Below, piece by piece: positions 4,717-30,403 of a stretch of DNA of 31,161 nucleotides. The position numbers were made by a program, and so were the translations under genes. A model generated the notes under the pieces. That model searched no databases. It was not told the DNA's origin and was given only the letters and a program-made list of their open reading frames with translations. Where the stretch lies: positions 1-31,161 of IMG/VR virus record IMGVR_UViG_3300017744_001918; one strand, given 5' to 3'. Source of the DNA: a virus. Each line of letters starts with the position of its first letter. The first letter of the stretch is position 1.

Positions 4717-5613
4717 TCAAGTCCCCCAGGCATTTCCGAATATGTCGACGTGTAGTCTTGGAGTGTATCTCCATCCTCTTGCCATTGCAAGTTCGGCGAC
4801 TTTTTTTGTGTTGAGGATATATGTTTCTGATCTTCCTCCCAGTGGCATGACATAAACGGGAACGTTGATTCCCACTTGATTGTACTCGGCAACTGCTTTT
4901 GAAACTTCGTCAACATCGGAAGCATCAGCGACCACAAATTTGAAATACATTTCACTATTAGGAATCCCGTTATAAGACCTAGCAATCTCAGGTTTGATAG
5001 CAGTGTTCCAAGGCTCACCCGATACGGAAAGTTTCGGAGAGCAACTCCAAGTGACTTGGAATTTGTCTTGTTTTCTAAGATAGTCTTCAAAATCCTTGTG
5101 TAAAGTCTGCGTTGTATTTGTCTCGAAAGTAACATTTTTTAAATCCTTCATTCTTGGATGTTCAAATAATTCAATGTAAGTTCTTTGCCATCCCAACAAA
5201 GGCTCACCGCCTGTTAATATAAAGTGTACATCTTGTCCATTAGACATTGTCCACTTGCCTTCAGGAGTTAATGATAACACATGATCCACCACTTCGTCAA
5301 TAGTCTTGTCCATCATAAACTTTTTGAACTCAGGGTATATACTGGCATAAGTGTCACAGCCTGTATGTACTATTGGCAAGTCTTCAAACTTTTCCACTTT
5401 GTCAGTAATCCCTGCGTCCAATAACTCTTTAACTTCCGGATTGTATTTTATTCCTTGTTTTAGTTTTTCTGCTCTATTTGGTTCTTTAGCCAAACCAAAA
5501 TTCATACAACGAAAGTTACAACCGAATGTTCGTAAGAACACACTTGGTACTCCAACAAAACGTCCTTCGCCCTGTACAGAGTAAAATGCTTCTGAATATC
5601 TAAGTTTAGTCAT
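4717..5613 (-). CDS. queE: 7-carboxy-7-deazaguanine synthase (QueE), radical SAM
   Basis: A 298-aa radical SAM enzyme that contracts 6-carboxy-tetrahydropterin to 7-carboxy-7-deazaguanine on the way to preQ0. The N-terminus has the QueE signature (FYSVQGEGRFVGVPSVF, 10-26). The cluster cysteines are unusual: C32 and C36 (GCNFRC), but the third expected position is Phe; GCDT, the usual end of the motif, appears only at C86 after an insertion of about 50 residues. The TGGEP loop for SAM binding is at 134-138 and the end is GNAWGT. The start overlaps folE by 8 nt with AAAGG before it. Family certain; activity likely if C86 is the third ligand. Confidence 0.92.
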   Translation of the reverse strand: MTKLRYSEAFYSVQGEGRFVGVPSVFLRTFGCNFRCMNFGLAKEPNRAEKLKQGIKYNPEVKELLDAGITDKVEKFEDLPIVHTGCDTYASIYPEFKKFMMDKTIDEVVDHVLSLTPEGKWTMSNGQDVHFILTGGEPLLGWQRTYIELFEHPRMKDLKNVTFETNTTQTLHKDFEDYLRKQDKFQVTWSCSPKLSVSGEPWNTAIKPEIARSYNGIPNSEMYFKFVVADASDVDEVSKAVAEYNQVGINVPVYVMPLGGRSETYILNTKKVAELAMARGWRYTPRLHVDIFGNAWGT

Positions 5614-6280
5614 GACCTTTCATGCTCATACAAATATCATAAAACTCTTTCTTAAGAGGAGCATGACTATCAAATGCACCTAGCATGATAGCAGTAGTCA
5701 TATCAGATTCATGTTCTCTTACACCTCTGTGTGTCATACAATGATGTTCTGCTTTAACCATCACAGCCACATTAGGAGTCTTTGCATATTTTTGTAGTGC
5801 TTCAGCAATCTGTGTTGTCATTTCTTCTTGTATCTGAGGTCTTTCAGCAATATGATGAACTATTCTATTAAATTTAGATAATCCAATAACTTCTTTTTCT
5901 GGAAGAATACCTATCCAACATTTACCTACAATATTCTGAAAATGGTGAGCACAAGTTGATTTTATACTAACTGGACCACTTGTGTATAAACTTCTGTAAC
6001 CCATATTAGGAAAAGAAGTAACTTTAGGCGGTTGTACAAATCTACCACCAAATATTTCTTTTATGTACATTTTAGCAACACGTCTTGCAGTTTCTTTTGT
6101 GTTGTGATCATTTTCAGTATCAATCACTAATGCATCAAGAACACCTCCAAAATTTTCTTCAACTTCTTTTTGAAGTTCTTCCAGTTCACCTTGCTCTATA
6201 AAATCAGCGATATTATCATTACTGTGAAATCTAATATCTTTTTCCTTAAGCCTTTGTCTTATTCGTTCTGATGCTTTCAT
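5606..6280 (-). CDS. folE: GTP cyclohydrolase I
   Basis: A 224-aa enzyme, close to the 222 aa of E. coli FolE. It converts GTP to 7,8-dihydroneopterin triphosphate, the first step of both folate and 7-deazaguanine synthesis. The zinc ligands fall at the E. coli positions: C110 and H113 (STCAHHF) and C181 (EHHCMTHRG); catalytic His residues are in the same motifs. GLSKFNRIV (133-141) is also typical. It is coupled to queE by an 8-nt overlap and starts at TAATG with GAGGGAC upstream. With QueE next door the purpose is most likely preQ0 synthesis rather than folate. Confidence 0.95.
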   Translation of the reverse strand: MKASERIRQRLKEKDIRFHSNDNIADFIEQGELEELQKEVEENFGGVLDALVIDTENDHNTKETARRVAKMYIKEIFGGRFVQPPKVTSFPNMGYRSLYTSGPVSIKSTCAHHFQNIVGKCWIGILPEKEVIGLSKFNRIVHHIAERPQIQEEMTTQIAEALQKYAKTPNVAVMVKAEHHCMTHRGVREHESDMTTAIMLGAFDSHAPLKKEFYDICMSMKGHD

Positions 6281-14597: not shown

Positions 14598-14801
14598 TTA
14601 TAGTGTTTCCTGCATTTTCTTTAACTGTGTTTTCAAAAACAGTTTCATTTTTTTAAATTTTAAAAGTAGTTGTTTGCCGTCCCATGATCTATCATATGAA
14701 CGTTCTGATTCCATTTGGTCTACTTTTCCTTTGTACCAGTGGTACTCTTTCTCGATTGCTTTTACTTTTTTACTTTTATTTGCCATTTTATGCCTCCTCA
14801 A
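14598..14801 (-). CDS. Small basic coiled-coil protein
   Basis: A 67-aa Lys-rich protein, predicted to be one long helix. It starts 14 nt inside the end of dpdA in another frame with GAGGCAT upstream. A better start may be the second ATG (codon 6, at 14786). No family recognised. Confidence 0.6.
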   Translation of the reverse strand: MRRHKMANKSKKVKAIEKEYHWYKGKVDQMESERSYDRSWDGKQLLLKFKKMKLFLKTQLKKMQETL

Positions 14802-16266
14802 ATAGATTAGAAAACTGTGTACTTGCGTTCACAGTCTTTTTACCTGTTGCACCTCTAGTGCCAATAATTGACATCCAGAATCTTGAAAACTCTTCGATTA
14901 CCATATTTGCCTCATCTCTACTGCTTGTGGCAAATATAGCATTTACAATATCTTTAAAAGCAATTCTATCAAATTTTTCTTCAACTAGCATTTTAGGATT
15001 TAAACCAGCATCATATTTTCTATTTGCTTCTTGTACTGCTGAAATATGCGTCCAAACATTGTGTGCCATTTGTAGTGTATAACTGAATGAATCCCAAGAA
15101 GTTTTACCTTCGTTACCCATTTTGTTTAAATCACCAGGCTTGTAACAAGTAATATCCTTCAGCATTAATCTTTTGCTGACTGCACTGTCTAAAAAATTAT
15201 CAAAGATGCCTTTTTCTAATACAGCATCTCTAAACAATTTTGTTTCAGTTGAAAAATCTTTATTGTCAACACTTGGTTGCATTCTATAAGTCCATTTCTT
15301 TTTGTCTTCAATTTCAATGTCAGTGTATATCTGTCCGTTTGCACTTGCTAAAAAAGGTGAAGCACAATCAAATGTAATCATAAAGTTTGGATTGTGATAC
15401 TTTCTAATTGCTCTTTGAACATCTGTTAGTAGCACTGCCCACTCTAATTTACTTGTACCTAAGAAGTGCATCACATCATGTACACCTTTTTCTAGTAAGC
15501 CGTCAAATCTCAAAGCCACTAGACGTTTCAATGCCAAATGTATATCACACATATTCTGACCACCCATTGCCCAACCATTAAAGTGTGTGCTAGGATGTAT
15601 CTTTGGATCACAATAGTCTTTCATTTGTGTGTACCAATCGTCTGCTTGTTGGAAGTTTTCACCTTGCAGTACATTTAAAAACTTACAATTACCATTTCTA
15701 TTTTTCATAAAATAGTCGTTGTTAATTTTTGTACCATCAACTGCTTCTTGATATGAACTGATTTTACTTGCCGCCGCACCCGCAGGAGAACGAGATACCC
15801 AAGCAGGTATATCCAATATCATACCATAGTCCATATTACCATCCATAAACGCCAACACTTGTTCACGTTTCTTTTTAGCCTTAGGACAATTAGAATCTTT
15901 CCAATCACCTTCCCAAACACCTTTACCAATCTGGAAACCACCTGAATCGCCAAGTACCCAATTGTCTTTTCTGTCTCTATTTCTAATAATATCGTCTCTT
16001 ACAGAAAAGTGATCCATATTCAAATCAGCATGACCCGCCGAATATAAATGCCACTTGTAATAGAAATAAGTGTCTTTGGAACTCATATAATTCATTCCTT
16101 CAACACCATGTTCAAAGTTTTGAGGTACTCTTTCAGGTTTTATGTAGTCTTCTTGATGTCTTGCTTTACCAAGATCCCTAGCATAAAAACTGCTTAATGC
16201 AGGAAGAAAAGTTGCATAGTCTTTCTGCTTTTCAGTTAGATTATCAGTTGGTATCTTCTTATCCAT
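14788..16266 (-). CDS. dpdA: TGT-like DNA 7-deazaguanine transglycosylase (DpdA family)
   Basis: A 492-aa tRNA-guanine transglycosylase homologue. TGT landmarks in order: LGDSGGFQIG (105-114, general acid/base D107), LDIPAW (151-156, D152), NVLQGE (198-203), GWAMGG (231-236), VMHFLGTSKLEW (265-276) and the nucleophile D300 in FDCASPF, followed by NGQ. The C-terminal zinc motif (CxCxxC) of tRNA-acting TGTs is not visible. Phage DpdA proteins exchange guanine in DNA for a 7-deazaguanine and protect against restriction. FolE, QueE and a QueD-like protein in the window support this. It lies 3 nt after the clamp gene. Confidence 0.85.
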   Translation of the reverse strand: MDKKIPTDNLTEKQKDYATFLPALSSFYARDLGKARHQEDYIKPERVPQNFEHGVEGMNYMSSKDTYFYYKWHLYSAGHADLNMDHFSVRDDIIRNRDRKDNWVLGDSGGFQIGKGVWEGDWKDSNCPKAKKKREQVLAFMDGNMDYGMILDIPAWVSRSPAGAAASKISSYQEAVDGTKINNDYFMKNRNGNCKFLNVLQGENFQQADDWYTQMKDYCDPKIHPSTHFNGWAMGGQNMCDIHLALKRLVALRFDGLLEKGVHDVMHFLGTSKLEWAVLLTDVQRAIRKYHNPNFMITFDCASPFLASANGQIYTDIEIEDKKKWTYRMQPSVDNKDFSTETKLFRDAVLEKGIFDNFLDSAVSKRLMLKDITCYKPGDLNKMGNEGKTSWDSFSYTLQMAHNVWTHISAVQEANRKYDAGLNPKMLVEEKFDRIAFKDIVNAIFATSSRDEANMVIEEFSRFWMSIIGTRGATGKKTVNASTQFSNLFEEA

Positions 16267-24238: not shown

Positions 24239-24376
24239 TTAAACAGTCTTGTGACAGTTTCTGATTGACCATCCATAAAAGTTAACTTTGCTGGCAACTT
24301 TCATGTAGAACCTTGTGATGTCCTTTTTAACTGGCATTAAGTATGGTACGTTTCTCTGTCTATTTCTTTTGATCAT
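24239..24376 (-). CDS. Small basic protein next to the ACP gene
   Basis: A 45-aa gene filling the space between the ACP gene and the promoter of the 217-aa gene. Its ATG overlaps the ACP stop (TAATG), typical of coupled genes here. It is strongly basic with several aromatic residues and one Cys near the end. Too short to assign. Confidence 0.55.
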   Translation of the reverse strand: MIKRNRQRNVPYLMPVKKDITRFYMKVASKVNFYGWSIRNCHKTV

Positions 24377-24594
24377 TATTTTTGCTCTACTAGATTAATT
24401 AGATCTTGAACAGTCTGGACTTTGTCACCATCGTCCTCTGATATTTTTACACCTGTGGCTTTCTCTACCTGTATCACCAGTTCTACTGTGTCAAATGGAT
24501 CTGCACCTAAATCATTCACTAGGTGTGCTTCTGGAGTTACCTTACTCTCCGCAACGTCTAGGTGTTCTGCTATAATTTTAATTACTGCTTTCAT
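24376..24594 (-). CDS. Acyl carrier protein homologue lacking the carrier serine
   Basis: A 72-aa protein with typical ACP length and acidic four-helix pattern. The motif that carries 4'-phosphopantetheine, normally GADSLDTVEL, reads GADPFDTVEL (30-39): Pro33 replaces the Ser, encoded by CCA instead of TCA. It should not be loadable as a carrier. It may act as a decoy or adaptor on host ACP partners, or be decaying. It overlaps the flanking genes by TAATG on both sides. Confidence 0.85.
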   Translation of the reverse strand: MKAVIKIIAEHLDVAESKVTPEAHLVNDLGADPFDTVELVIQVEKATGVKISEDDGDKVQTVQDLINLVEQK

Positions 24595-24998
24595 TATTTT
24601 TTCTTCTTTTTAGTGGCAACGTTGATTGCTTTGCCACGTCTATCTGGATTGGGATCTTTTCTTCTTTTTCTTGCCGCCGCACTTGCTCTGCCTTTTTTGC
24701 CTAATGCGTATGCCTTCTTGGCTGGTAAGCATTTAGGTTTACCTTCGCCATCTGATTTGCCACCACATGAACCTCTGATTTTTCCACCAGGTCCCATGCG
24801 TACCCATTTTTGTTTGAACCATTTTTTAAGATTTTCGTCTAAGGATTCGTCTAGTAGTATATCGTGACAGTTTACACAGAAGTCAATGTGTTCTCTTTTA
24901 ACACAGTTGGGTACACGTTTTCCGAACATGGTCTTCATGCCCTTCTTTGTGTAACCTTTCCAGCAACGTGTTCCTTCTAGGATTTCGTTTACCTTCAT
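24594..24998 (-). CDS. Basic Cys-containing modular protein, possible capsid internal protein
   Basis: A 134-aa protein with Lys/Arg-rich ends and nine Cys. It starts MKVNEILEG, similar to T4 capsid-targeting peptides with an I-L-E prohead-protease site. A first module (about residues 10-30, CWKGYTKKGMKT) is followed by cysteine pairs CVNC, CGGK and PKCLP, then a very basic end. It may bind DNA inside the capsid. The role is inferred. Confidence 0.6.
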   Translation of the reverse strand: MKVNEILEGTRCWKGYTKKGMKTMFGKRVPNCVKREHIDFCVNCHDILLDESLDENLKKWFKQKWVRMGPGGKIRGSCGGKSDGEGKPKCLPAKKAYALGKKGRASAAARKRRKDPNPDRRGKAINVATKKKKK

Positions 24999-25825
24999 TA
25001 CTTCTTACTCTTGTTGCCCCAATTCTTAGCACCTTTTTTACGGCACTGTACTAGAGCACCAGAGGCATAGGCTGAAGGCCAAACTTTATATCTTGCTTTG
25101 ACTTTGTGATAGCAGGCATCTTGTTTCTCTGCTAATGTATCGAATTCTTCTTCTGTAATTGCTTTACCAACTGATTCTTCTAAAGATGTAAATGATTCTT
25201 TTTTCTTTTTATTGTGCTTGTCTTTGATTGCACCAATCTCTTCTGCACTAGCACCTTTGCCAGCGGCACTTTGAATCTTTTTCATTCCGTCTTTGCCGTA
25301 CTTCTTAACTCCGGCTTTATACATTATTCCAGATTCGTCTGTTGATTGATCAGTCTTTTTTTTTGAAGATTCTTTTAATTTATTTTGTAATTTACTTGCT
25401 AATGATTCTTTGTAATCCACTGCATCTTCAACTGGTTCAGTTTTAGGTTCTACTGGTAACTCAACGTTGTCTTGAGGCATCATTTCATATTCCATGTAGT
25501 GTTTCACCGAACTCAAATAGTCTGCCGCTTTAGTAATCTTAGCCGCTACCCAACCTTCTAAACCTTGTTCTTCTGAAACATTTTTTAATATGTCGTGCAG
25601 TTTAATTGAATATTTTGCCGCTTTGTATAAATCTGATCTTGCCATTTGCACTTCATGATCCATTTCCGCTTTGTGAGCCATCAGTGCTAGGTCTTCTGTC
25701 TGTACGTCTTTTTTAGAATCTTTTTTAGTGCTTTTACCGTTCTTCTTTGCTAATGCGTCAATAGCCGCTTGTGGCATTTTGCCTTCTTTAGCAACGTCTT
25801 TTTTTGTTAAATCTGAATGTTTCAT
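24998..25825 (-). CDS. Modular structural-type protein
   Basis: A 275-aa protein built from apparent modules. Residues about 46-120 form a helical domain (HEVQMARSDLYKAAKYSI, then a GLEGW motif). A second module follows around MYKAGVKKYGKDGMKKIQ, and a Cys-containing end (YKVWPSAYASGALVQCRKKG) closes it. Lys-rich linkers separate them. Such modules recur in marine T4-like phage late genes. It begins just after a late-type octamer. Function in the virion is likely but not shown. Confidence 0.6.
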   Translation of the reverse strand: MKHSDLTKKDVAKEGKMPQAAIDALAKKNGKSTKKDSKKDVQTEDLALMAHKAEMDHEVQMARSDLYKAAKYSIKLHDILKNVSEEQGLEGWVAAKITKAADYLSSVKHYMEYEMMPQDNVELPVEPKTEPVEDAVDYKESLASKLQNKLKESSKKKTDQSTDESGIMYKAGVKKYGKDGMKKIQSAAGKGASAEEIGAIKDKHNKKKKESFTSLEESVGKAITEEEFDTLAEKQDACYHKVKARYKVWPSAYASGALVQCRKKGAKNWGNKSKK

Positions 25826-25830
25826 AGTAA

Positions 25831-25838
25831 TATTTATC
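25831..25838 (-). promoter_or_regulatory. Candidate T4-type late promoter
   Basis: GATAAATA overlaps the stop of the upstream small gene and ends 5 nt before the ATG at 25825. If used, the message would have almost no leader. Confidence 0.4.
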
Positions 25839-26064
25839 TCTTTATTGGAGCACCAAAAACTGAGGTACCTTTCATGTCCAGAGCATTGTCAGTTGGTTTT
25901 TGCATCTTTGCTTTGGGTGGCATTGCCGGAGCACCTTTTTTGCCATAGGCATCACGTGCTTTTTTGTTGCCTATTGCTATGTGTGGATTAGCCACTGTTG
26001 CAATACTGCCAGCCGATGTAGCACCTGCTGTTGCAACTTCTGATATAATGTCTCTGATACGCAT
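25834..26064 (-). CDS. Small protein with capsid-targeting-like N-terminus
   Basis: A 76-aa protein starting MRIRDIISEVATAG, with I-S-E then V as a possible cleavage site. The rest is Ala/Gly/Lys-rich, low in structure. The ATG at 26064 is chosen because it lies 4 nt after the preceding stop with GGCGGT upstream; a longer in-frame extension would run through the previous gene. Unknown function. Confidence 0.55.
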   Translation of the reverse strand: MRIRDIISEVATAGATSAGSIATVANPHIAIGNKKARDAYGKKGAPAMPPKAKMQKPTDNALDMKGTSVFGAPIKR

Positions 26065-26068
26065 AATG

Positions 26069-26251
26069 TTATTTACCGCCTTTATGTAAATTTTTAACAC
26101 GTTTAGATGTGGTGTATTTTGCGTGTGGTACTTTGAGGTTCTTTTTACCGTATATGTCGCCCACTTTGTGCGTGTATACCAGCATTTCAGGATCCAATCC
26201 ATAATGATAGTCCACACGGGCTTCTACCATTTTGAAATCCTTATAACGCAT
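26069..26251 (-). CDS. Small protein with capsid-targeting-like N-terminus
   Basis: A 60-aa basic protein starting MRYKDFKMVEARVD, close in pattern to the T4 internal protein leader (MKTYQEFIAE). A prohead protease might cut after M-V-E. The remainder is Lys/His/Tyr-rich. It sits between two tiny genes with spacings of a few bases. Confidence 0.55.
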   Translation of the reverse strand: MRYKDFKMVEARVDYHYGLDPEMLVYTHKVGDIYGKKNLKVPHAKYTTSKRVKNLHKGGK

Positions 26252-26252
26252 A

Positions 26253-26345
26253 CTACTTGAATTTTTTCTTAATTTTGTCTACAAGTAAACTTACTTTAGA
26301 ACAAGTGTACCACGTTTTCAACTTCTTTTTTGCTTTCTTCCACAT
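26253..26345 (-). CDS. Very small basic peptide gene (tentative)
   Basis: An ORF of 30 codons fills the 95-nt gap between two genes, starting one base after the preceding stop (TAATATG) and ending one base before the next ATG (TAGTATG). The product is amphipathic and Lys-rich (MWKKAKKKLKTWYTC at the N-terminus). There is no clear ribosome binding site. The tight fit is the main argument. Confidence 0.42.
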   Translation of the reverse strand: MWKKAKKKLKTWYTCSKVSLLVDKIKKKFK

Positions 26346-26346
26346 A

Positions 26347-26589
26347 TTACAATAATTTTTTTAGCATTATAATACCGTTGTCTATAATTGCTCTTTCTTC
26401 ATAACTACCACCAGATCCAACTTCACCGGAGCCCGATGTTAATGCTTCTAAACCTTCTACGTATTTTGATTCTGTGATGTCACCAGATTCAAATCTAGTT
26501 TTTAATGATAATAATGATGATGCTGTTTCTTTGACCCAACCTGTTCTTGAATCACGAGCATTTACTAATCTATCTAAAAATTCAGCCAT
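26347..26589 (-). CDS. Small hypothetical protein
   Basis: An 80-aa protein with two helical halves separated by a Gly/Ser-rich segment (about 52-62). It has a GAGGA ribosome binding site and a late-type octamer 24 nt before the ATG. It ends in a hydrophobic/basic tail. Unknown function. Confidence 0.62.
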   Translation of the reverse strand: MAEFLDRLVNARDSRTGWVKETASSLLSLKTRFESGDITESKYVEGLEALTSGSGEVGSGGSYEERAIIDNGIIMLKKLL

Positions 26590-26613
26590 TGTTTATTCCT
26601 CTTTGTTATAATG

Positions 26614-26621
26614 TATTTATT
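26614..26621 (-). promoter_or_regulatory. Candidate T4-type late promoter
   Basis: AATAAATA overlaps the stop of the preceding gene and is followed by CATTATAACAAAGAGGA before the ATG at 26589. It shares octamer and leader with the site at 24210. Confidence 0.58.
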
Positions 26622-26934
26622 AAGATTTGCTTCTGCCAGACTTCATATTAGCACACCAATGATACATTTTACCCTTTTCTCCACCGTATTTTTTGGCTTT
26701 TGTACGCAATGATGATACACTACCATTGCAACTGGCCCCTGCTTTTTTCACTCTACCTGGTCTGCTTTTACCTTTTTTCTTGCCGTCTGCAAAGTTTTCG
26801 TTGGCTTTATTATTGCCCACATTTTTGAAACCAAATCTATTATTAGGACCTGTGCCTTTTTTATGTATTAAGCCTTGTGGCTTGATAGTTTGAGGCATGA
26901 TAATCCAATCAGCAATGACGTCTCTTATTTTCAT
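26620..26934 (-). CDS. Basic modular protein, possible capsid internal protein
   Basis: A 104-aa Lys/Gly-rich protein. It begins MKIRDVIADW, resembling the other leaders but with Asp instead of Glu at the possible cut. The C-terminal half is a compact basic module with two Cys (GRVKKAGASCNGSVSSL, then MYHWCANMKSG). It overlaps the nucleotidase gene by ATGA. Probably virion-associated; inferred. Confidence 0.58.
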   Translation of the reverse strand: MKIRDVIADWIIMPQTIKPQGLIHKKGTGPNNRFGFKNVGNNKANENFADGKKKGKSRPGRVKKAGASCNGSVSSLRTKAKKYGGEKGKMYHWCANMKSGRSKS

Positions 26935-27656
26935 CTTAGTCTAGGTGGGTTACCTTTTTTGTCTATTTTAAATCCAAACTTTGCCGCTTGACGTTGTGTT
27001 TCGCCTGGCTTTACATCTGCGGTTGTATTTTGTTTTGTAATAATTCCAACACCTTCTTGTTTTGATTGATGTTGCTTTGTGTATGTTTCTAATTCTGATT
27101 TAATTTTGCTTAATGAATCCCTATTTGCTTGATACAATATTCCAAAGCCACCTGCACTGTTCCATTTTTGTATATTGATTGGTCTATCATCTATTAAAAT
27201 ATTAGGCTGTTTAGTTTGTTTGTTGATAGCATAAGATTCTTTTCTACCAGTGATAATTGTTTCTGCAGGCTGTTCAATGTTTTTGCTGATCCATACTTTT
27301 TTCCATTTGGCTGAATTGGCATTGTCGCCTCTTAATGGTGAAGAACAAATACTGAACGTTCCACCTGTAAATTTTTTAACCAAGTCAATTAATTGATCTG
27401 CACTTGTAAATTTTGGCAAAGTTTCAAAAAAGTTTGTGCCAGTAATTTTTTCAATTACTTCTGCTTTTAAATCTTTAGTTCTATCTGATGTAAGTTCTTT
27501 CCAGTGTTTAACACCATAAAGTTTTTCAATACCACCGAAGAAGTCAGCCATAACTCCGTCCATGTCTAAATATACAATTGGTTTAGTTTCCATATCTTCA
27601 TTATACAACTTTTTGTTGTATTTGTCAATATTGGATTCTAAGTCCAAAATACGCAT
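26931..27656 (-). CDS. HAD-family 5'(3')-deoxyribonucleotidase-like protein
   Basis: A 241-aa protein. Motif I is YLDMDGVMADF (29-39, D31 and D33), motif II is CSSP (104-107), and motif IV is LIDDRPINIQKW (154-165). This is the NT5C pattern, an enzyme that dephosphorylates nucleoside monophosphates. The C-terminal tail (about 210-241) is a basic module typical of this gene block. The first 21 residues precede the normal HAD start; codon 22 is an ATG placed 6 nt after a perfect TATAAT, so a shorter form (219 aa from 27593) may be made from a leaderless message. Confidence 0.78.
   Translation of the reverse strand: MRILDLESNIDKYNKKLYNEDMETKPIVYLDMDGVMADFFGGIEKLYGVKHWKELTSDRTKDLKAEVIEKITGTNFFETLPKFTSADQLIDLVKKFTGGTFSICSSPLRGDNANSAKWKKVWISKNIEQPAETIITGRKESYAINKQTKQPNILIDDRPINIQKWNSAGGFGILYQANRDSLSKIKSELETYTKQHQSKQEGVGIITKQNTTADVKPGETQRQAAKFGFKIDKKGNPPRLR
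27600..27628 (-). promoter_or_regulatory. Consensus promoter inside the nucleotidase gene, predicted leaderless
   Basis: Perfect TTGACA (27623-27628), 17-nt spacer, perfect TATAAT (27600-27605) within codons 10-19. Six nt later comes the in-frame ATG at 27593, just ahead of the catalytic HAD motif. Confidence 0.72.
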
Positions 27657-29311
27657 TAATTGAAACCTAAATGTGTAACTTCTGGGTATTTTGATTTGAT
27701 TTTTCTGGCAAGTTCGTTGTGCAGTTTAACCTGTTGGTTCATATATCCTTCAGGTTTGCCACCTGATATCATTGTAGGACCATCAGGATTTTTATCTATT
27801 GTTGTAGGTTCTTCTGGAGATTGTTTACCAATATTCTTTTTCAACCATTGTGTTGAAACACCAATAAATTCATCTACAGGTACAGCACTCATATTTTCAA
27901 AATCTCCGCTGTAACCTAATCCAGTTAGAAATTCTCTCATGCTGGCATTACTCAAGTAAGGAGTATCCAACTCTTTATCTTTTGCCCAAGCCATTGGAAA
28001 TTCATACACAGTAGTTTTCTCTCCATCAAAATCTTTTTCAGTTTTAAAATAAGGAATCATTGATGCACCTTCTTTAACTGAATCGTCATTGTCTATAGAA
28101 GTCAACTGTGGTTGAGGTTGTTGTCCAGTTTGTTGTCCAGTTTGTTGTGCAGGTTCTTGGTCAGGACTTAAATTTACTTTACCAAGTTCAATAGCAATTT
28201 TATTTAAATTTCCTTTTAATGTACCTGCTGAGACTTTTGATCCTGGTGCAAACATTTTCTTTAAATCACCTTGAGCATCCATTCTTTTAAAAGCATCAGG
28301 ATGTCTCGGAGCAACATATTTTCTCAAATATGCTACAACTAAATCTGCAGGATATCCCTGAGACACATCTGTTTGATTTAAACCTGCCACGGTGTTAATG
28401 TCTTTGAATAAAGTATCCATTTGAACTTTTGCTTGATCATCTGCTTGAACTTTTGCCGCTGTTGCTGGATCATACAATGCTCTGACTTGATCTGGTACAA
28501 TTTTTCTGCCTGCCGCTTTTAAAGTGTCTAACCAACCTTCATCCAGATAAGTTCCTTCAGATGTTTGTTTATTCATTGTGATTGTAAACTTGTTGCCTTC
28601 GAAATCTACATCTTTACCTGTAATTAATTTGTACATCTTTGCCAACAGTCTATTATCATATTCTGGTCTGCCATGTCCTTTTTGAGGTTCTTTAATTTTG
28701 TCTGCTAACATTTGAACAAATGCTGATTTGTCTAAACGCATTTCGCCTTCGTTAGTTTCTTCTGTTCTTAATGCTGATCTTTTAAATCCTTTTTGAATAA
28801 AATCTTTTTCACGTTCTGCTGGAATCATAATTGTTTTACCATCTTTGTGAACATATAAAGTTTTACCCATTGCTCCTACTCTTTTCATATCTGTAGGCTG
28901 TACACCATCTTCTGTTTGAGATTTGCCTTTTTGAACTCTATCAAAATAGTGTGAACTCATATTGCCGTAGCCGTGTCTCCAAGCCATCTGTCTTAAAGTT
29001 TTTTCATCTGAATCTTTAAATCTATCTGCAAGTTCTTGGTCAGTCATATCAGCATATCTTTGTTTGCTTTTGATAACTGATGCTGGCATTCTTTCTTGAA
29101 CATTGTCTTCTGTTCTTAAATTTTTCTCAGCCCATCTACGTAATTCTTCTTTTCTTTTGGCTATCACAGCCTGCGTTCTAGCATCACTCATTCTAGGATC
29201 TTTTTGAATGTCTTGTAATGAAGCCATTTTGGCTTTGTAATCATCTCTGTCTTTTGGATCAGGTTGATTTGCTATGTTAAATTCTACTAAAAATAAATCT
29301 CTTAATTTCAT
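27656..29311 (-). CDS. Large repetitive late protein, possible capsid internal protein
   Basis: A 551-aa hydrophilic protein. It starts MKLRDLFLVEFN, with L-V-E as a possible protease site. A Gln/Gly/Pro tract (TGQQTGQQ, about residues 392-400) separates a charged first part from a more folded C-terminal domain (about 410-551). No enzyme motif is seen. It overlaps its neighbours by ATGA/TAATG. A role inside the virion is plausible from the leader and location only. Confidence 0.6.
   Translation of the reverse strand: MKLRDLFLVEFNIANQPDPKDRDDYKAKMASLQDIQKDPRMSDARTQAVIAKRKEELRRWAEKNLRTEDNVQERMPASVIKSKQRYADMTDQELADRFKDSDEKTLRQMAWRHGYGNMSSHYFDRVQKGKSQTEDGVQPTDMKRVGAMGKTLYVHKDGKTIMIPAEREKDFIQKGFKRSALRTEETNEGEMRLDKSAFVQMLADKIKEPQKGHGRPEYDNRLLAKMYKLITGKDVDFEGNKFTITMNKQTSEGTYLDEGWLDTLKAAGRKIVPDQVRALYDPATAAKVQADDQAKVQMDTLFKDINTVAGLNQTDVSQGYPADLVVAYLRKYVAPRHPDAFKRMDAQGDLKKMFAPGSKVSAGTLKGNLNKIAIELGKVNLSPDQEPAQQTGQQTGQQPQPQLTSIDNDDSVKEGASMIPYFKTEKDFDGEKTTVYEFPMAWAKDKELDTPYLSNASMREFLTGLGYSGDFENMSAVPVDEFIGVSTQWLKKNIGKQSPEEPTTIDKNPDGPTMISGGKPEGYMNQQVKLHNELARKIKSKYPEVTHLGFN
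28117..28152 (-). repeat. Short in-frame tandem repeat
   Basis: Three copies of a 12-nt unit (ttgttgtccagt on the plus strand, last copy with one change) encode the Q-Q-T-G repeats of the 551-aa protein. The length could vary by replication slippage without shifting the frame. Confidence 0.7.
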
Positions 29312-29517
29312 TTCTTTCTACTCCTAAACTGTACAGGTCCAGTCATATATGGTTTTGAGAACCACAATTTAAACCAATCTGGATCACCTGGTTTTAAGCC
29401 TAGTTTTCTTTCCTTTTTTCTCAAAGCAGTAGCAGTTTGACTAATGTTCTCTCCCATAGAAGGTTCATTACTCTCTGTGCCAATGCCGGCTAAACGTTTT
29501 AAATCGCTTATGTTCAT
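29308..29517 (-). CDS. Small basic modular protein
   Basis: A 69-aa protein starting MNISDLKRLAG. Its second half is a module (KPGDPDWFKLWFSKPYMTG) ending in basic residues. The ATG overlaps a perfect TATAAATA octamer, so if that late promoter is used the transcript would start inside this gene or serve genes downstream. Unknown function. Confidence 0.6.
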   Translation of the reverse strand: MNISDLKRLAGIGTESNEPSMGENISQTATALRKKERKLGLKPGDPDWFKLWFSKPYMTGPVQFRSRKK

Positions 29518-29524
29518 ATTTATA
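29517..29524 (-). promoter_or_regulatory. TATAAATA, T4 late promoter consensus
   Basis: A perfect match to the T4 late -10 element whose last A is the A of the ATG at 29517. The expected start would fall a few bases into the gene, so it probably serves the 551-aa gene and beyond, or it is chance. Confidence 0.45.
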
Positions 29525-30095
29525 CTGTCACAGGATTTAATTTAAGTCCTGTTCTCACTTGATTATACATTTCTTCTGCTGTTTTAGGGTCTATAGGTAC
29601 AGCATTTATAAAAGTGCTTTTGTCTCCACGAGCGGCTAAATCACGCATTTTTGAAGCACTCATGCCTTCAAGACCTTGTGCATCAGGATCACGTTCGCCT
29701 GCACTCACTACTTTTACTGAATTAAAGTTATATTCTTTACCATTGTACTTGTTTAATAATTCATTGAATTGATTTACTCTATCAGAACCTGCCACATATA
29801 TGATATTCGTGTAACCCATTTGTTCTAATTTCTGCATGGCTTGTACCCATGTTCTTACTGCTTTGTCACCAACTTTTATCATTGGAAACATTTTTTGAGC
29901 AAAGGTTAATTTTTGTGAAAATGTTAATGGATCTGTTTTTGCGTTTTGAGTGTGTGTTACAAAAATAAAAGGATCACCAGGTTGTGCTTTGATGACTTCA
30001 CCTATTTTTTTGTGTCCTGCTGTTGGAGGATTCATTCTTCCAAAGGCGAATACAGCAGTCTTATTTGGTGCTTCTAGTATCTCCGTGATCAGCAT
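29520..30095 (-). CDS. Nucleotidyltransferase (cytidylyltransferase/NMNAT-like)
   Basis: A 191-aa adenylyl/cytidylyltransferase. FAFGRMNPPTAGHKK (16-30) contains the T/HxGH motif (H28), and MSASKMRDLA (145-154) is the [IM]SxSxxR motif that binds the nucleotide phosphate. Relatives make NAD, CDP-lipids or FAD; the substrate here is unknown. It begins MLITEILEA, with I-L-E as a possible prohead-protease site, so the enzyme might be packed in the capsid and injected. It starts 2 nt after the previous stop with GAGAAG upstream. Confidence 0.8.
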   Translation of the reverse strand: MLITEILEAPNKTAVFAFGRMNPPTAGHKKIGEVIKAQPGDPFIFVTHTQNAKTDPLTFSQKLTFAQKMFPMIKVGDKAVRTWVQAMQKLEQMGYTNIIYVAGSDRVNQFNELLNKYNGKEYNFNSVKVVSAGERDPDAQGLEGMSASKMRDLAARGDKSTFINAVPIDPKTAEEMYNQVRTGLKLNPVTV

Positions 30096-30097
30096 GA

Positions 30098-30403
30098 TTA
30101 CTTCTCATCTTCTTTTTCAGCATCCATCATTCTTTGCATAAGCAAAGTTTTGTCTTGTGTAGTTATTTGATCTGCTATCTGTTTTGGAATCTTGTACTTT
30201 GTACAATATTCTTTGATGCATGAATCTATTAAAGGCATAACTGCTTCGTTATCGCCTGTTTGTTTGCACTTGTTCATTGTGGGATAATAATTTTTTCTAT
30301 AAAACTCATCATCGTTAATCATGTAAAAGTACATATCATCTAATAGATCATAATCTAAAGTAGGTTCTTGTTCTATCTGATTGAATTCGTTTAGTCTTAC
30401 CAT
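30098..30403 (-). CDS. Hypothetical protein
   Basis: A 101-aa acidic helical protein with Cys around residues 44 and 65. The ATG at 30403 overlaps the end of the upstream gene and has GGAG nine nt before it; a TTG five codons earlier is less likely. Its N-terminus (MVRLNEFNQIEQE) is somewhat like the neighbouring leaders. Unknown function. Confidence 0.62.
   Translation of the reverse strand: MVRLNEFNQIEQEPTLDYDLLDDMYFYMINDDEFYRKNYYPTMNKCKQTGDNEAVMPLIDSCIKEYCTKYKIPKQIADQITTQDKTLLMQRMMDAEKEDEK

Follow-up and report, generated by a model that had tools for sequence, protein, structure and literature searches.

The window analysed here is the complete 31,161-base IMG/VR record IMGVR_UViG_3300017744_001918, a fragment of a marine myovirus. 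Its gene block at 24594-30095 is likely to be a head-cargo cassette, in which at least four proteins (those starting at 24998, 26064, 29311 and 30095) carry T4-type capsid-targeting propeptides, hereafter called leaders. An earlier note on this DNA had proposed that these are capsid-internal proteins whose leaders are cut after I/L-x-E, a nucleotidyltransferase included. That proposal is supported by the genes for gp21, gp22 and gp23 that relatives carry on the contigs of the cassette, by a leader site in register with that of the capsid protein, by three cyanophage nucleotidyltransferases reported in virions and by the behaviour of the corresponding pattern in T4. We regard packaging as well supported; that it occurs in this very phage, together with cleavage, is suggested by the sequence, and injection into the host is something we only infer.

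Nearly all of the window's genes lie on the minus strand, including every gene of the cassette, and the positions by which the earlier note named them are their high (5') ends. The gene starts are computed, and they are backed both by tight coupling to the preceding stop codon, which lies a few nucleotides (nt) away or overlaps by as much, and by conservation in the near relatives L002-L004. The genes of the cassette and its surroundings are as follows (aa, amino acids; a slash marks the putative cleavage site):

29520..30095, minus strand: nucleotidyltransferase, 191 aa, HIGH-superfamily 'cytidyltransferase' (PHROG_3041, 3.2e-51); leader MLITEILE/A at 30072-30095
27656..29311, minus strand: 551-aa modular protein; leader MKLRDLFLVE/F
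26931..27656, minus strand: 5'(3')-deoxyribonucleotidase-like HAD protein, 241 aa (PF06941, 25.7 bits, cut-off 24.8; PHROG_2643, 1.5e-25)
26620..26934, minus strand: very basic 104-aa protein; MKIRDVIAD/W, with Asp where the cleavage Glu is expected
26069..26251, minus strand: basic 60-aa protein; MRYKDFKMVE/A
25834..26064, minus strand: 76-aa protein; leader MRIRDIISE, next VATAGATSAGSIATVANP, resembling the capsid N-arm just past its protease site
24998..25825, minus strand: basic 275-aa protein; start MKHSDLTKKDVAKEG without a leader match; carries a KARYKVWPSAYASGALVQCRKKGAKNWG module
24594..24998, minus strand: very basic 134-aa protein; leader MKVNEILE/G and a CWKGYxxxG.....RVPNC module (PHROG_727, 5.3e-20)
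29308..29517, minus strand: 69-aa protein MNISDLKRLAGIGTE..., conserved across the lineage, without a strict site
30098..30403, minus strand: acidic 101-aa protein MVRLNE..., a marginal leader match and probably not cargo
24376-24594: acyl carrier protein (ACP; PF00550, 3.5e-10), adjoining the cassette and starting MKAVIKIIAE

The four strict leaders, 8-10 residues long, read exactly as the earlier note had written them (that of the 76-aa protein being MRIRDIISE/V). The short motif at their end is not in itself informative: when genes outside the block are pooled, 49 of 426 (about 1 in 9) have an I/L-x-E somewhere in residues 4-12, and the start of the neighbouring ACP matches it although this is an ordinary ACP, a match that is due to chance. 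We therefore used the full grammar M[KRL]xx[DE][IL]x(1-3)E, derived only from the four window leaders, on five other genomes (G011, G022, G026, G027 and G028), with the neighbourhood set by the position of the enzyme and not by the leaders. Of the 129 genes that lie no more than 9 kb from the nucleotidyltransferase, 14 match, as against only 2 of the 718 other genes (Fisher p = 1.8e-10); among internal methionines in the same genomes, 3 of 6,027 do. This full grammar is not a product of chance. A unified looser pattern covering both T4 and the window was discarded for its many false positives.

The leader is conserved on otherwise unrelated bodies, as seen both in this held-out test and in identical leaders on unrelated neighbours. 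For example, in G011 the start MRLREIFE is common to a GH19/LysM endolysin-like protein (52407-53576, L093) and the nearby nucleotidyltransferase. The leaders of G026 are MRLRQLFKE (on a DUF6267 protein), MKLRQLFE (on the nucleotidyltransferase), MRANEFITE, MRAKEIFE, MRAKEFIKE and MKINELLTE, and those of G022 are MLLRELFE, MKVNEITE, MKIRDIINE and MKIHDIISE. In G024 a second leader-bearing group (115373-119951; L289, L290) with MKIRDITE, MKITEIVTE, MKAKEFIKE and MRLVEFKE, the last on a DUF6267-like protein, stands far from the first cassette.

For the nucleotidyltransferase the leader can be followed through many relatives. Among the 35 distinct leaders of its closest relatives, 33 retain I/L-x-E at the end while the middle residue varies (F, V, Y, T, K, I, L, N); the stated specificity of gp21 is likewise a fixed I/L and E with a free residue between them (PMC9026906). 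Ahead of the enzyme fold, the alignment of the 35 proteins shows one invariant residue, M1, and one nearly invariant, E8, and no others of this kind. The predicted structure places the leader outside that fold, with a mean predicted local distance difference test (pLDDT) score of 53 for residues 1-10 against >90 for most of the body, and a first strand that begins at residue 13. More remote homologues begin either with a T4-like leader (MKFSEFLREA, MKFKDFINEN, MINSFKNYLVEE) or straight at the fold, and the leader is therefore an add-on. As for the body, its PPTAGH and GMSASKMR motifs, of the (H/T)xGH and S-x-S-K-x-R types of the HIGH superfamily, are invariant or nearly so. A profile of the family found no match among PDB sequences, and the best Foldseek matches are to PPAT/CoaD, the Rossmann-like fold being nearest PPAT/NMNAT.

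The closest long relative of the window is G024 (148 kb), with matches to 51 window genes, most at >85% amino-acid identity, followed by G001, G011, G022, G026 and G025. Matches to isolates are short or distant only, and comparison with known phages at the DNA level gave a single short rubrerythrin match. Five related contigs (G025-G029) encode T4-type gp21 and gp23, separated or flanked by gp22- and gp68-like genes, and in G025-G028 the leader cassette is on the same contig as gp21, gp22 and gp23. The earlier note had wanted the prohead protease located in the genome: the 31-kb fragment and G024 have none, but the gp21 of G025-G029 retains the catalytic residues of T4, His85 and Ser140. The gene directly after the portal in G025-G028, the position of T4 gp67, starts M[IL]LRELFYF or MLLNEFIYF and so reads like the cargo leaders. 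Low-complexity proteins with leaders also occur 8-9 kb upstream of gp21 (MKIAELITE at 123818 in G025, MKLYEVLLE at 154705 in G026 and MKISDITNE at 130765 in G027); these are candidates for head or neck cargo of some kind.

The 76-aa protein bears on the cleavage site itself. The capsid protein of the lineage has Y[LI]xE near residue 41, aligned with FLTE65/A of T4 gp23, and its consensus over 80 loci, LxE/[ST]ATAGATSAGN[VI]AT, shows little variation. The 76-aa window protein reads ISE/VATAGATSAGSIAT, the counterpart of the capsid sequence past its Glu. When a hidden Markov model (HMM) of six capsid arms was run against 40,737 open reading frames (ORFs) from all the sequences used, it retrieved the capsid proteins and then the 76-aa family (8.4e-6 in G024, 1.1e-4 in the window); some 30 non-capsid ORFs were found at E up to 0.05, and none in the reversed set. 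Wherever the match extends to the Glu, that residue is in the same register. Because the sequence of the capsid cleavage site is thus shared in register, there is strong sequence support for the leader Glu being the protease site. The capsid arms of cyanophages are quite different, and an independent profile made from them finds S-CREM2 gp160 (5.5e-8) and S-SCSM1_97 (9.5e-8). The former is a reported virion protein (PMC10665884), and the latter is annotated as one in its record.

Virion evidence comes from the cyanophages. Proteomics of S-CREM2 virions detected the cytidylyltransferase gp154, the S-adenosylmethionine (SAM) hydrolase gp6, the APH-like kinase gp14, the Cas9-like nuclease gp12 and hypothetical proteins (PMC10665884). 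In this phage, leaders are present on the nucleotidyltransferase, the SAM hydrolase, the APH-like kinase and two of the hypothetical proteins from the virion (MKNFSSFLTE/A for gp154; MKDFDSFLEE and MKRFDAFLTE; MKDLHSFLTE for gp13; MQTFSMFFSE for gp136). Nucleotidyltransferases have likewise been reported in the virions of two other cyanophages, S-SCSM1_91 and S-SZBM1_140 (PMC9602691, PMC9146016), and they start MKSFLQFLKE/A and MRFRQFIIE/A, respectively. A T4-derived pattern selects seven genes in S-CREM2, of which five have products detected in the virion (p = 0.011; 0.0015 without tail and neck proteins), and in T4 (60-157 kb) it selects IPII, IPIII, Alt, gp24 and gp2, all of them head proteins. 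The Cas9-like gp12 (L108, 7704-10313) has a leader-like LRFASFMAE/A at residues 17-25, behind a short extension; its start codon is possibly misplaced, the Leu codon being CTG. Our literature search for the capsid targeting sequence together with cyanophages returned a T4 review only, and in the literature searched the connection between capsid targeting and cyanophage virion enzymes does not seem to have been made. The new elements are the putative enzyme cargo of this lineage and the mimic of the capsid arm.

These observations suggest how the cassette might work. As a tail without structure of its own, hydrophobic at about positions 3 and 6, the leader would bind the scaffold core during prohead assembly and so have its cargo built into the prohead; gp21 would then cut after I/L-x-E, leaving the mature protein free in the capsid with the DNA. 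Strongly basic mature products would be expected there, lying among the packaged DNA; the net charge past the leader is +26, +8, +7 and +20 for the proteins starting at 24998, 26064, 26251 and 26934. Like T4 Alt, the nucleotidyltransferase would be an enzyme carried in the head, and it probably enters the next host; soluble enzymes would exit with the DNA.

Two further proteins, at 26251 and 26934, had been called near matches, and so they are: their MVE and IAD fail the strict I/L-x-E test. The leader of the first resembles the strict MRYSDFKLVE/G that starts a 489-aa protein of G022. Orthologues of the second carry a strict site (MKIRDIVE/R in L002/G001, MKIIDIIE/R in G024). In T4 IPIII, an Asp at the cleavage position stops cutting and not targeting (PMC9026906), and by analogy MKIRDVIAD/W may be a similar case, targeted and uncut. 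The nucleotidase, which the earlier note thought might also be packaged, fared less well. It is an NT5C/HAD-type protein by its above-cut-off PF06941 match and its DMDGVMADF motif; its start MRILDL[ED]S retains the first half of the leader pattern only, its N-terminus MRILDLESN has no I/L-x-E site, and the D/E at residue 7 is not conserved in relatives. On sequence we therefore rejected it as leader-bearing cargo, and its packaging is unproven. A HAD protein in L046 has the proper leader MKIYDLFE.

As to the remaining cassette genes, the KARYKVWPSAYASGALVQCRKKGAKNWG module of the 275-aa protein sits directly after a leader in L011 and L048. The 551-aa protein gains and loses whole modules among near relatives (L002-L004 and G024; 357-782 aa), phages that are mostly >85% identical elsewhere. 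It gave no match in Pfam and PHROG searches and no relative among isolates by tblastn, and its predicted structure is too poor to be usable (mean pLDDT 49).

Several alternatives deserve consideration. Coincidence, with AT-rich coding and a biased N-terminal composition yielding MK-hydrophobic-acidic starts, would account for the ~10% background of a simple I/L-x-E near the N-terminus and for the ACP next door, but it is hardly credible given the contrast between cassette neighbourhoods, other genes and internal methionines under the full grammar, and the conservation of Ile/Leu and Glu over 35 leaders. It is quite improbable that the leader is a true sorting tag for some other destination (the tail tube, the baseplate hub or an intracellular assembly site) with incidental cleavage: the leader-bearing proteins of relatives do include peptidoglycan-acting domains (GH19, LysM, peptidoglycan-binding) that would suit the tail or lysis, but I/L-x-E is the gp21 motif, the site is in register with that of the capsid, and in T4 the same pattern marks head proteins only. 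The nucleotidyltransferase could also be an ordinary late enzyme of NAD, CoA or nucleoside diphosphate (NDP)-sugar metabolism, its tail having no part in packaging and its virion homologues being contaminants. P-HM2 has a leaderless homologue, contamination was raised by the cyanophage authors themselves (PMC10665884, PMC9602691) and HIGH-superfamily enzymes can make NDP-sugars (PMC7824862); nevertheless we find this improbable, as the enzyme is in the virions of three cyanophages, each time as the leader-bearing member, and the S-SCSM1 neighbours 89, 90, 92, 93 and 97 are also annotated as virion proteins. The 76-aa protein, finally, might be the decayed remnant of a partial duplication of the capsid gene and have no function in the head, and T4 does have partial duplicates too (the alt.-1/alt.-2 annotation). 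We think this rather unlikely, for the protein is kept in distant relatives with its leader and Glu register intact, and its cyanophage counterparts gp160 and S-SCSM1_97 are virion proteins.

Packaging with T4-type leaders remains the reading that we prefer, and a number of points weigh against it. Profile searches found no gp21 or gp23 in the window (PF03420 in its record) or in G024 (PF03420 and PF07068), which we put down to both being fragments: G024 ends ~10 kb past the window's left edge, and the head genes of G026 are ~50 kb further on. Knowledge of the head genes comes solely from relatives that have 21-28 of the window's genes, and the virion evidence comes from cyanophage homologues. 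The authors of those cyanophage studies concede that the enzymes found with their virions could be contaminants that co-purified (PMC10665884, PMC9602691), and the Kyanoviridae nucleotidyltransferases of P-HM2 (MKKVYVTFGRLNPP) and S-PM2 lack a leader, which implies that packaging is not universal for the family. A GH19/LysM endolysin-like protein, as in G011, is unexpected head cargo. The hydrophobic residues of the window leaders are at 3 and 6, not at the 4 and 7 of T4, where the targeting residues of IPIII were mapped (PMC9026906). When the mean similarity of N-termini was compared between genes near the cassette and genes far away, only two of six genomes gave a significant result; we put this down to the many cassette neighbours without a leader and dropped the test.

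Comparison with known systems shows both likeness and divergence. The T4 internal proteins IPI, IPII and IPIII have a leader of about ten residues ending I-x-E (MKTYQEFIAE/A in IPII and IPIII), diverse small bodies and T4-type head genes; the leaders of the window lineage, in contrast, are of the 8-10-residue MKIRDI/MLLRELF type, and its genes, whose products are predicted to be packaged and ejected, form one cassette, whereas those of T4 are scattered. T4 Alt, a packaged ADP-ribosyltransferase, is an enzyme with a short leader, MELITELFDE, close to MLITEILE, although the window enzyme is a nucleotidyltransferase. The gp21-cleaved vertex protein gp24 of T4 starts MAKINELLRE/S, resembling MKINELLTE of G026 and the window leaders, but it is a shell protein and not cargo. 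S-CREM2 gp154, S-SZBM1_140 and S-SCSM1_91 are of the same enzyme family, with T4-like leaders and detection by mass spectrometry in virions; they differ in belonging to Kyanoviridae, with cyanobacterial hosts and leaders worded MKxFxxFLxE. Two other Kyanoviridae, again a different family from the window lineage, also place leaders on unrelated neighbours: Melnitz (MQGFKTFLSE and MINFSKYITE, the enzyme having MKKFSEIIE) and C48C1 (MLDFKNFITE and MLSFKQFVSE, with the annotated start of the enzyme inside the domain).

Late promoters in the block (TATAAATA-type) had been offered as support for late expression. This support is weak and uninformative, and we rejected the promoter count as an argument for late expression of the block. 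ATAAATA occurs six times in the window, fewer than the 15.5 expected by chance and always on the coding strand, and only two copies are directly upstream of block genes:

25831..25837, minus strand: late-promoter-like ATAAATA, 13 nt upstream of the 275-aa gene
26614..26620, minus strand: late-promoter-like ATAAATA, upstream of an 80-aa gene at 26347-26589

In G024, an ATAAATA is present in the 60 nt preceding 27 of 226 genes overall, compared with 2 of 13 block genes; on the opposite strand the genome-wide count is 2. T4-type late promoters are thus likely in the lineage and not special to the cassette.

Elsewhere in the window (4717-6280 and 14788-16266), a GTP cyclohydrolase I gene (PF01227, 2.3e-45) adjoins a QueE-like, radical-SAM-looking gene, and there is also a 492-aa protein. 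Together with the cyclohydrolase, the QueE-like gene and the 492-aa protein, the latter reminiscent of DpdA/TGT, raise the possibility of 7-deazaguanine DNA modification; a Pfam search gave no match for either of these two.

Taking the leaders and the arm mimic together, a tentative joint reading, to which we give somewhat less than even weight, would have cargo packaged by either of two parts, a cleavable leader or a copy of the capsid N-arm right after the protease site. Under it, the mimic, once cut, would either anchor cargo to the inside of the capsid wall or vie with the capsid arm; phage groups would have independently made mimics of their own capsid arms; and the DNA would be accompanied on delivery by the nucleotidyltransferase and, in a cyanophage, by the SAM hydrolase, kinase and Cas9-like nuclease. 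The arm mimic, if functional, would be a second cargo-loading route, of which we found no description in the literature searched. The leaders themselves provide a sequence rule that predicts which proteins of marine T4-like phages, enzymes included, travel in the head, and this rule offers an explanation for the hitherto unexplained nucleotidyltransferases, kinase, SAM hydrolase and Cas9-like nuclease in cyanophage virions.

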